Source of the DNA: Phycisphaeraceae bacterium
GTDB lineage: Bacteria > Planctomycetota > Phycisphaerae > Phycisphaerales > Phycisphaeraceae
Direction of reading: 5' to 3'
DNA: 64,000 nt
NCBI GenBank assembly: GCA_029260595.1
Contig: JAJDCY010000023.1
Span: 372,001-436,000, forward strand
This document shows, piece after piece, positions 4,442 to 8,297 of this stretch. Made by a program: the position numbers and the translations under genes. Positions within the stretch are counted from its first letter, which is position 1. Every line of letters begins with the position of its first letter. The notes beneath the pieces are model-generated. The model did not search any database and was not told the DNA's origin. It worked only from the letters and a program-made list of their open reading frames with translations.

Positions 4442-4795
4442 CTAGGCCTTCATGTCCAGGTGGTGGTACAGCGGCTTGTCGACGCGGGTGGCCCCGGAGG
4501 TCGGCGCCACGGCACCCTGGTCCGGTGTTGCACCACCCGCGTCTTCCGATTTCGGCTCGGGCAGCGGCTGGGCGCTCGGCGGATGCTGGTGCTGCGGCAT
4601 TTGGCCGTCGATCCGCATCCCGTTGGCGTCTTCATGCCCTTCTTCACCCAATAGGTGCAACTCGACCGCGTCGCGGATATCGCGGTCGTCTTTCGACCCC
4701 CCTTTGTTGACGCGGTTGCGCTGGGTCGCCGCCTGCTTGGCCTGCACGCCCGTCTGGGCCACTCCGGCTGCAACACCCGTTCCGATGATGCTCAT
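4442..4795 (-). CDS. Small hypothetical protein, low complexity C-terminus
   Basis: 117 residues starting MSIIGTGVAAGVAQTGVQA. The start at 4795 is chosen over an upstream ATG at 4870 because GGACGGAG sits about 8 nt before it and the upstream extension adds nothing protein-like. The N-terminus is a small Gly/Ala/Val helix that could pack against a membrane or form part of a coiled coil (QAKQAATQRNRVNK). A charged middle follows (DDRDIRDAVELHLLGEE), then a Pro/Gln/Ala-rich tail that looks disordered. I do not recognise a family. It lies just downstream of nusG on the same strand, but a candidate terminator separates them. Confidence 0.6.
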   Translation of the reverse strand: MSIIGTGVAAGVAQTGVQAKQAATQRNRVNKGGSKDDRDIRDAVELHLLGEEGHEDANGMRIDGQMPQHQHPPSAQPLPEPKSEDAGGATPDQGAVAPTSGATRVDKPLYHHLDMKA

Positions 4796-4916
4796 GGTTA
4801 GGCTCCGTCCTGTGGACAGTCGTATAGCCCCCGATACTTTATCGGCAGAATAGGTACTGTTGTTCTGCAAAATCTTCGCCGGCCAATATCGGACGCAATC
4901 TCACACCCGATCGCCG

Positions 4917-4953: not shown

Positions 4954-5664
4954 TTACTCGTCAAACTTGCCGATCATCCAGTACTCCAGCTCGATCGGCG
5001 TCGCCCGCCCAAAAATCGTCACAATCACCCGAACCTTCCCCTGAGCCGGCAGCAGTTCGTCGACGGTGCCTTCCATGTTCTCGAAAGGCCCCTCGTTGAT
5101 CTTGATCGCGTCGCCGGGGGTGAACTCCATCTTGACGGTCGGGGCTTCTTCGGGGGCCTTGCTGGCCGCGAGCATCTTCTCGATCTCGGGGATGCTCATC
5201 GGGCTGGGGCGGCCCGCGGTGCCGATGAAGTCGCCGACGCCGGTGGTCTCCTTGATCAGGAAGAATACGTCCTGCGGGATGCGGCCATCCTCTTCGAGCT
5301 TCATCTCGACGAAGACGTATCCGGGGTAGAGCTTCTTCTGCGTGATCCGCTGGCGGCCGGCTTTGATGGTCTTGGTCTTTTCGGTCGGGACCAGTATGCG
5401 GTTGACCAGGTCGGTGAAGCCCTCGATCTTGATTTTGCGAAGTAGCGTGCGGCGGACGGAGTCTTCCTTGTTCGACGCGACGCGCAGGACGAACCAATTC
5501 ATGCCCGGCGTGATCAGGGGCTCTTCCTCGGAGATCTCATCGGTCTGATCGATTTGATCGGCTTCGTCGACCTGCACGACCTGCGGCTCGGCCTGCTCCG
5601 CTGCTTCTGCGGGGGGCTCGGCTTGCTCGGCCTGCTCTGTCTGGATCACTTCCTCTTCGGGCAT
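4954..5664 (-). CDS. nusG: Transcription termination/antitermination factor NusG
   Basis: 236 residues. The NGN domain begins at MNWFVLRVASNKEDSVRR (from about residue 55) and includes KKLYPGYVFVEMKLEED. The KOW domain follows (FTPGDAIKINEGPFENMEGT, then GKVRVIVTIFGRATPIELE). NusG binds RNA polymerase beyond the clamp, suppresses pausing, and links to Rho or ribosomal S10. The protein is longer than the usual 180 or so residues because of a 54-residue N-terminal extension rich in Glu, Gln and Ala with repeated EQAE/EQAEP units, probably disordered. It follows secE as in most bacteria, but the ribosomal genes rplK-rplA-rplJ-rplL that normally come next are absent. Confidence 0.95.
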   Translation of the reverse strand: MPEEEVIQTEQAEQAEPPAEAAEQAEPQVVQVDEADQIDQTDEISEEEPLITPGMNWFVLRVASNKEDSVRRTLLRKIKIEGFTDLVNRILVPTEKTKTIKAGRQRITQKKLYPGYVFVEMKLEEDGRIPQDVFFLIKETTGVGDFIGTAGRPSPMSIPEIEKMLAASKAPEEAPTVKMEFTPGDAIKINEGPFENMEGTVDELLPAQGKVRVIVTIFGRATPIELEYWMIGKFDE

Positions 5665-5787: not shown

Positions 5788-6492
5788 TTAGCCGCCCTCG
5801 AGGACGCCGATCGACCTGAACAACAGGGCAAAACCAATGTCCACCGTGAACAATAATAGGGCCATCAGAAGCGTCCCGCAGATTACCAGCCAAGTTGAGC
5901 CGATAATTTCCCGCCGTGTCGGCCAATTGACCTTCCGCATCTCGGACTCGGTGGCGATCATAAAGTCGACGACGCGCGGCTTATTCAGGATCCACCAGAG
6001 TAACGCGGCGAATACCAATGCGGTCGCAACCGCAGATGCTGCCTGAACATACAGCAATATACTCCGCCGGCGCCCGACGGTCAGTTCCAGTCCCGCGGAT
6101 GGCTCGGCCTGGCGTAATGCCTTGATCAGCTCGTCGCGAGCGGACACGGGCACGGCACCGATATGGGTGATCACATCGCGGGTCTGTAGGCCGGCCTGCT
6201 TCGCCACGTAGTTCACGGAGGTCACGGCCAGTGTCGGCGTATCGTCCGACGGCTGCTCGGCCGCGTCGGGGGTCTTGAGCTTGATCCCCAGCCCTTCGAG
6301 CGTGAGAGGCTCGGACCCGAGCTTGGCGGCATCGATCTGCAGCACCGCGGTGGAGGCCACGGTCGGCCGCAGGGTGCTTAGCTCGTCACACAACCAATAG
6401 ATCCCCCATGCCACCAGCAATGCCGCGGCGGCACCGGTTACTACGCGGGTGGCGAATCCTTGATTGGGCTTGTAAATCGCGAAGAAAGACAA
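5788..6492 (-). CDS. secE: Preprotein translocase subunit SecE with an inserted PDZ-like domain
   Basis: The C-terminal part is clear SecE: ESEMRKVNWPTRREIIGST (about residues 182-200), the amphipathic cytoplasmic hinge, then the last membrane helix (about 201-225). Two more helices precede it (about 17-38 and 145-169), giving the three-helix topology of E. coli SecE. Between helices 1 and 2 lies an extra region of about 105 residues. It holds a PDZ-like pattern: LGIKL, a gap, TLAVTSVNYVAKQAGLQTRD, VITHIGAVPVSARDELIKAL, then LELTVGRRR. This loop is predicted to face the periplasm. The start is a TTG at 6492 with AGGAG ten bases upstream; the longer frame to 6615 is Arg/Pro-rich and unconvincing. 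SecE clamps SecY in the export channel. It sits between tRNA-Trp and nusG. Confidence 0.88.
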   Translation of the reverse strand: MSFFAIYKPNQGFATRVVTGAAAALLVAWGIYWLCDELSTLRPTVASTAVLQIDAAKLGSEPLTLEGLGIKLKTPDAAEQPSDDTPTLAVTSVNYVAKQAGLQTRDVITHIGAVPVSARDELIKALRQAEPSAGLELTVGRRRSILLYVQAASAVATALVFAALLWWILNKPRVVDFMIATESEMRKVNWPTRREIIGSTWLVICGTLLMALLLFTVDIGFALLFRSIGVLEGG

Positions 6493-6666
6493 CGGTCGGC
6501 GACTCCTCGTCGTGCTAGGTGGCAACTGCGGCGACCGTCGGCCGCGACATGCGGTCGGCGTGCCCGGCAAAGACGCGCCCCGGCTCGCCCGGCTGATCTG
6601 ACCTAGCGGGCCCACCCGGCTTGCCCGCCTGACTCGGGGTCAACTTCACGTCCAATCACCGGTGAA

Positions 6667-6739
6667 CACGCCAGGAGGGACTCGAACCCCCAACCTGCCG
6701 CTTTGGAGACGGCTGCTCTACCAATTGAGCTACTGGCGT
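6667..6739 (-). tRNA. tRNA-Trp (anticodon CCA)
   Basis: A complete cloverleaf on the minus strand. The acceptor stem pairs ACGCCAG with CTGGCGT. The D arm is AGCTCAATTGGTAGAGC, the anticodon stem GCCGT/GCGGC encloses the loop CTCCAAA with anticodon CCA, and the T arm contains GGTTCGAGTCC. The discriminator base is G, as expected for bacterial tRNA-Trp. The 3' CCA is not encoded. Its place between rpmG and secE matches a widespread bacterial arrangement. Confidence 0.97.
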
Positions 6740-6823
6740 AAAGCCGTACCCCCAACGCCGTACCTTGCATGGTCTTGGTCGCTGAGTGCTGTGTGGCTGA
6801 GCCAACCGCCTTGAGGTACGGGG

Positions 6824-7085: not shown

Positions 7086-8297
7086 CTACTCAAGGATCTT
7101 GGTAACGACACCGGCCCCGATCGTGCGGCCGCCTTCACGGACGGCGAATCGCAGGCCCTCTTCCATGGCGATCGGCTTGTCGAGCAGGTCGATCTCCATC
7201 TGGACATTGTCGCCGGGCATGCACATCTCGGCCCCGCCCAGGAGCTGGATCTGCCCGGTGATATCACTGGTTCTAAAGAAGAACTGAGGCTTGTAGCCGG
7301 GGAAGAACGGCGAGTGTCGCCCGCCCTCTTCCTTGGTCAGGACGTAGACCTCGCCCTGGAACTTGGTGTGCGGGGTGATCGACCCGGGCTTGGCGAGCAC
7401 CTGCCCACGCTGCAGGTCGGTCTTCTCAACGCCACGCAGCAGGCAGCCGACGTTGTCGCCGGCCTGGCCCTGGTCGAGCAGCTTGTTGAACATCTCGACG
7501 CCGGTGACGGTCGTCTTCATCGGTGCTTCGGTCAGCCCGACGATCTCGACCGCTTCGCCGACCTTGACCACACCACGATCGATACGCCCGGTGCCGACCG
7601 TGCCGCGGCCCTTGATCGAGAACACGTCCTCGATGCTCATCAGGAATGGCTTATCGATCTCGCGCTTCGGCTCGGGGATGAAGGTGTCGATCGCCTCCAT
7701 CAGCTCCTGGATGCACTTGGTCTTCTCGGGGTCCTCAGGGTTCTGCAGCGCCGGGAAGGCCGCACCCTTGATGATCGGTGTGTCGTCGCCGGGGAAGTCG
7801 TACTTGCTCAGCAGCTCGCGGATTTCGAGCTCGACCAATTCCAGCAGTTCCTCGTCGTCGACCAAATCGACCTTGTTCAGGAAAACGACCAGTGACGGCA
7901 CATTGACCTGGCGGGCGAGCAACACGTGCTCACGCGTCTGGGGCATCGGCCCGTCCGCGGCGGAAACCACGAGGATCGCTCCGTCCATCTGGGCGGCGCC
8001 GGTGATCATGTTCTTGACAAAGTCGGCGTGACCCGGGCAGTCCACGTGGGCGTAGTGGCGTTTGTCCGACTCGTACTCAACGTGGCTGGTCGCGATCGTC
8101 ATGATCTTGGTCGCGTCACGACGCCCGTCGGATTCCGACGCCTTGGCGACTTCGTCGTAGGGCTTGTACGTCGCCAGACCCTTCGCGGCCTGGACAGCCG
8201 TGATCGCCGATGTCAGCGTGGTCTTTCCGTGGTCCACGTGGCCGATCGTGCCGACGTTTACGTGGGGTTTGGTGCGTGCGAATGTCTCTTTTGCCAT
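7086..8297 (-). CDS. tuf: Translation elongation factor Tu with an atypical switch I
   Basis: 403 residues, unmistakable EF-Tu along its whole length. It has the P-loop GHVDHGKT (residues 20-27), switch [10 protein letters not shown] (86-93), NKVD for guanine recognition, then domains 2 and 3 ending [17 protein letters not shown]-Tu delivers aminoacyl-tRNA to the ribosome. The odd feature is switch I: where nearly all EF-Tu have RGITI, this protein reads KIMTI (64-68) inside [17 protein letters not shown]. About five extra residues precede it ([12 protein letters not shown]). The threonine that binds magnesium is kept; the invariant Arg-Gly pair is not. Nucleotide reading of this stretch is unambiguous and in frame. 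It is the second gene after tRNA-Thr in the unit. Confidence 0.97.

Follow-up and report, generated by a model that had tools for sequence, protein, structure and literature searches.

The SecE locus and its predicted PDZ domain

The gene considered here is a secE gene that encodes a predicted PDZ domain between the first two membrane helices of the protein, and it is contained in a stretch of 64,000 nucleotides (the window) from a Phycisphaeraceae bacterium (contig JAJDCY010000023.1, positions 372,001 to 436,000). The gene lies at 5788..6492, in the frame and at the coordinates given in a preliminary description of this DNA. It is on the minus strand and comprises 234 codons plus a stop codon, with a TTG start at 6492 and no internal stops. 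A likely ribosome-binding site (AGGAG, 6503..6507, minus strand) is located ten bases 5' of the TTG. A longer open reading frame from a GTG at 6615 (275 amino acids) was rejected, because relatives such as P0011 start at the position of TTG 6492 and because the AGGAG precedes this codon. The gene is the sole SecE match in the genome (assembly of 2.88 Mb, 88% completeness).

The SecE profile PF00584 matched residues 177-227 (5812..5964, minus strand; amphipathic segment and helix 3) with an E value of 6.4e-14 and 52.1 bits against a cut-off of 22.7, and TIGR00964 matched the protein with 47.4 bits against a cut-off of 27.55. The AlphaFold2 model contains helices at residues 13-40, 146-169, 172-179 and 193-227, the first two of which represent transmembrane helix 1 (6373..6456, minus strand; hydropathy peak at 17-35) and transmembrane helix 2 (5986..6057, minus strand; hydropathy peak at 151-169). 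The amphipathic segment (model helix 172-179) is situated ahead of the C-terminal helix 3 (193-227; third hydropathy peak at 207-225), the arrangement required of a SecE. Profiles, model and hydropathy are thus in agreement with the SecE signature and the three membrane helices of the preliminary description.

The insert occupies about residues 44-144 (6061..6363, minus strand), between helices 1 and 2, and its earlier assignment as PDZ-like is supported by profiles, by the structural model and by 15 relatives. Pfam matched the insert with PDZ_2 (E value 2.5e-5) and PDZ_6 (5.9e-5); the PDZ score for the whole protein, 24.9 bits, is slightly below the cut-off of 27, and a six-frame search gave PDZ_2 scores of 26.9 bits for the insert and 27.3 bits with its neighbours, flagged as above the cut-off. 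The precomputed database annotation of the protein lists SecE only. Structure prediction and a fold search had been proposed as a test, and the lack of a PDZ fold as grounds for refutation; a PDZ fold was predicted, and comparison of the AlphaFold2 model with PDB structures supports it. The sequence Leu-Gly-Ile at residues 68-70 (6283..6291, minus strand) forms the putative carboxylate-binding loop: LGI, LGL, FGI, WGI or WGL is found at this position in all 16 aligned PDZ-SecE proteins, and we take this hydrophobic-Gly-hydrophobic motif to be the carboxylate-binding loop of a PDZ domain. Only Gly69 and Arg141 are invariant, and six further positions are at least 85% conserved (96 insert columns with enough rows). 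The likeness to HtrA proteases is limited to the PDZ domain, as the window protein has no Pfam match to a trypsin-like protease domain. The GC content at third codon positions (GC3) is 0.84 in the insert (6061-6363) and 0.70 and 0.72 in the flanks, a difference that may reflect the membrane-helix codons of the flanks or a recent origin.

The gene order at the locus is tuf, rpmG, trnW, secE, nusG, with rpmG assigned from reading of the sequence rather than by a profile. The other neighbors, all on the minus strand, are tuf (EF-Tu; 7086..8297, Pfam EF-Tu domains), the tRNA-Trp gene upstream of secE (6666..6740, ARAGORN) and nusG, the next gene of the cluster (4954..5664, PF02357 and TIGR00922). 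Motif patterns revealed the identical order at locus L093, and tuf, trnW, secE and nusG are also present at locus L062 of genome G049, where rpmG gave no match to the search pattern. In the NusG protein of the window, the profile match begins at residues 55-57 and is preceded by an extra N-terminal stretch of about 55 residues in which Glu, Gln and Ala are abundant. The nusG gene is followed by an open reading frame for 142 amino acids (4442-4870, minus strand) without Pfam or NCBIfam matches.

Distribution of PDZ-SecE proteins and of other inserts

A first homologue search yielded 149 proteins, and a PDZ domain was annotated in P0003-P0006. A five-member profile (window protein, P0003, P0004, P0006 and P0122, the SecE of G049) added P0123-P0132, which brings the number of PDZ-SecE proteins to 16, including the window protein and P0005, which is identical to P0004 except for the first letter. 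This protein search covered the best 120 of 1704 matches, and further members may rank lower. Precomputed annotation reports PDZ families in 11 of the 15 non-window members. A search with the insert only (residues 40-148) retrieved the window protein alone among 343 candidates; the method requires exact shared words, and thus this result is not evidence of absence.

In the class-wide search, the five-row profile matched 392 of 397 genomes, mostly via the core, and matches at the PDZ-SecE level were confined to G000, the genome of the window (7.9e-114, 379 bits), and G049 (7.3e-107, 358 bits); the next match, G026 (1.9e-54, 185 bits), carries a different insert. Likewise, in a phylum sample of 199 genomes, which does not contain G049, the 16-row profile found only G000 at the PDZ-SecE level (321 bits), followed by G026 (202 bits). 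A family- and order-level set of 58 loci, obtained from 61 genomes (59 matched, G012 left out), comprised two loci with the PDZ domain (L001, L005), three with another insert (L003, L008, L021), four with an all-beta insert (L041, L045, L047, L051) and 49 with a short loop; eight of the inserts were flagged by a pattern and that of L008 was recognized by reading. The search among planctomycete SecE proteins suggested in the preliminary description has therefore recovered the insert in 15 further proteins, but the distribution is patchy and the same loop harbors other inserts.

One of these, a domain of 83-107 residues, is present in 55 of 60 selected loci (L129-L188) from a large family of the same order, and was modelled as an all-beta domain with no clear known fold (L127-L188 and the four loci above). 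A further kind, in which a GQ(S/T)-x-(S/T)L motif is frequent, was found in L003, L008, L021, P0042, P0046, P0145 and P0164, and Pfam detected no family in the five that were scanned. Hence, at least three kinds of insert occupy one site in SecE.

Origin of the insert

The genome of the window has ten PDZ_2 matches including that of SecE, and nine PDZ pieces cut from five other open reading frames were compared with the insert. The best match to the 16-row PDZ profile was the last PDZ domain of a 532-residue HtrA-type protease (39.9 bits), followed by two matches of 30.5 and 29.3 bits, all from HtrA-type proteins. With a profile of the window clade, the same domain scored 32.4 bits (positions 46-103 of 106), about the level of P0125 and P0127 and above several PDZ-SecE proteins; with a profile of the P0006 group it ranked third (22.9 bits) behind two other HtrA PDZ domains (24.5 and 23.8 bits). 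The domain itself is weakly recognized by Pfam (19.9 bits, below the cut-off), the HtrA match omits the first strand, and a BLAST comparison of P0003, made on the same question, gave 37% identity over 41 residues. Taken as a best match, the sequence comparison suggests an HtrA-type source of the insert.

A tree was built from SecE cores after removal of the insert (57 rows, 128 columns). Of the 60 rows initially selected, three did not match the core pattern and were omitted; P0005 was excluded because it nearly duplicates P0004, and the part corresponding to helix 1 is missing from P0003 and P0004. On this tree, whose bootstrap had not settled, PDZ-SecE proteins fall into about four positions. 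The PDZ label needs at least four changes, two of which are forced by well-supported branches. A single PDZ-SecE clade was rejected both with 15 rows (p 6.7e-9) and when P0122 was omitted, leaving 14 (p 0.015). With the window-clade PDZ profile, P0006 scored 63.4 bits over nearly the full length, the other eight members of its group 11-34 bits, and P0122, P0131 and P0132 6-12 bits. The score of P0006 ties its PDZ domain to those of the window group. The phylogeny that had been proposed for dating the insert thus speaks against one clade, but it is compatible with one old gain followed by losses, with repeated gains and with exchange, all of which are possible.

Possible function and alternative explanations

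In the known topology of SecE, the segment that joins helices 1 and 2 faces outward, and therefore the predicted PDZ domain would be situated beside the channel exit, tethered there by the hairpin of the two helices. SecE binds SecY and is required for its stability, as stated in PMC8082313. Our favored reading, to which we assign a little less than an even chance, is that the window SecE carries a PDZ domain of about 100 residues on the external side of the membrane that binds hydrophobic ends of exported chains leaving the channel. Its groove would take up C-terminal or extended strand-like segments, like the PDZ domains of the HtrA family, would hold the chains briefly against sliding back or aggregation, and might pass them on to HtrA-type proteases or chaperones. 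In PMC12445088, PDZ1 of DegP is described to bind a C-terminal motif of substrates, and in PMC8082313, PpiD and YfgM contact SecYEG at the exit side, where their proposed role is to keep chains from sliding back and to hand substrates on.

Several observations weigh against the capture of exported chains. The C-terminus of a chain exits the channel last, and thus early capture would be limited. In other lineages, different domains occupy this loop, and peptide binding is therefore not a necessary property of a domain at this site; near relatives have a short loop, for example G032 with a core that is 81% identical. The insert is highly variable beyond a few columns, and Pfam finds no PDZ domain in P0124 and only one at 0.0054 in P0125, both diverged, so that the PDZ nature of these two proteins rests on the alignment. 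Lastly, SecG tails were read from relatives (13 of 14 genomes matched, 12 tails read, L228 of G006 excluded), and none of the 12 ended with a hydrophobic residue; SecG is thus no obvious PDZ ligand. In G000 (assembly 88% complete) secG was not found, no SecDF match exceeded the cut-off and secY reaches the contig end; the missing secG and secDF are likely assembly gaps.

The main rival to substrate capture is the recruitment of a fixed partner, whereby the PDZ domain would dock at the channel exit a membrane or periplasmic factor, held by its C-terminal tail; candidates are an HtrA-type protease, a PpiD-like foldase, signal peptidase, SecDF and YidC. PDZ domains typically dock partners via C-termini, and the genome encodes two HtrA-type proteases as well as a PpiD/SurA-like protein (a weak match below the cut-off, with an N-terminal hydrophobic segment). 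Contacts of E. coli PpiD with SecY and with chains at the exit, described in PMC8082313, would fit such a role. The 12 SecG tails read from relatives, none with a hydrophobic end, argue against it, however, as does the PpiD-like protein, whose tail, ...GEQDE, is presumably a poor PDZ ligand, and we consider a fixed partner unlikely.

Somewhat more doubtful still is the possibility that the insert is a tolerated passenger without an important PDZ ligand, in a loop that accepts domains because helices 1 and 2 are outside the conserved core. The patchy distribution, the short loops of near relatives and the multiple kinds of insert would all be expected in this case, and the single transmembrane segment of B. 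subtilis SecE, mentioned in PMC12445088, points in the same direction. Nevertheless, loss of the groove would be expected if the insert were inert, and the hydrophobic-Gly-hydrophobic loop has been kept in all 16 diverged members, with an open frame in each of them. An assembly, frame or annotation artefact, which the preliminary description had named as a possible refutation and to which the TTG start and the raised GC3 might point, has a negligible chance, because 15 further database proteins, including one from a second binned genome (G049), share the architecture without internal stops, and the membrane helices encoded by the flanks may by themselves depress the GC3 there.

Returning to the capture of exported chains, a broader and more tentative proposal, which we regard as rather less than evenly probable, is that the outer loop of Phycisphaerales-type SecE is a plug-in socket into which different lineages placed unrelated domains of similar size, and that one set of them took up an HtrA-like PDZ domain. 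The essential export channel would then itself act as a receptor for the ends of exported proteins, gripping them and linking translocation to quality control. SecYEG is regarded as a near-universal channel of minimal design, and its exit-side helpers as separate proteins. If the proposal is true, a peptide-binding receptor at the exit would be carried by the channel core itself. The effect on export is open to loop swapping, as the module resides in one small protein that has near relatives without it, and the other inserts at the same site offer natural comparisons. Judging by titles and the beginnings of abstracts, a PDZ-bearing SecE is not described in the literature searched, in line with the preliminary description, which knew of none; the architecture itself is, however, already visible in the precomputed Pfam annotation of database proteins.

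Comparison with known systems

In comparison with E. coli-type SecE, the window protein is alike in its core profiles (PF00584 and TIGR00964 above the cut-offs), its three helices and the tuf-rpmG-trnW-secE-nusG neighborhood, and differs in a helix-1/helix-2 loop that is about 100 residues longer and contains the predicted PDZ domain. Among the PDZ domains of its own genome, the insert is nearest by profile to those of HtrA/DegP-type proteins and has kept the likely peptide-binding loop; unlike HtrA/DegP, SecE has no protease domain and its PDZ domain forms part of a membrane hairpin within the translocon. In the model, the first strand of the insert comes from the N-terminal side, unlike in the permuted bacterial PDZ domains.

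SecDF, with its 12 membrane helices, is a separate factor with other domains. According to PMC8082313, its periplasmic domains resemble the insert in that they belong to a Sec component and lie outside the cytoplasm close to the exit. A functional parallel would be to PpiD and YfgM as portrayed in the same source, since they too provide an extracytoplasmic module at the channel exit that is proposed to help in release and hand-over; they are, however, separate proteins with other domains, whereas the window module is located inside SecE.
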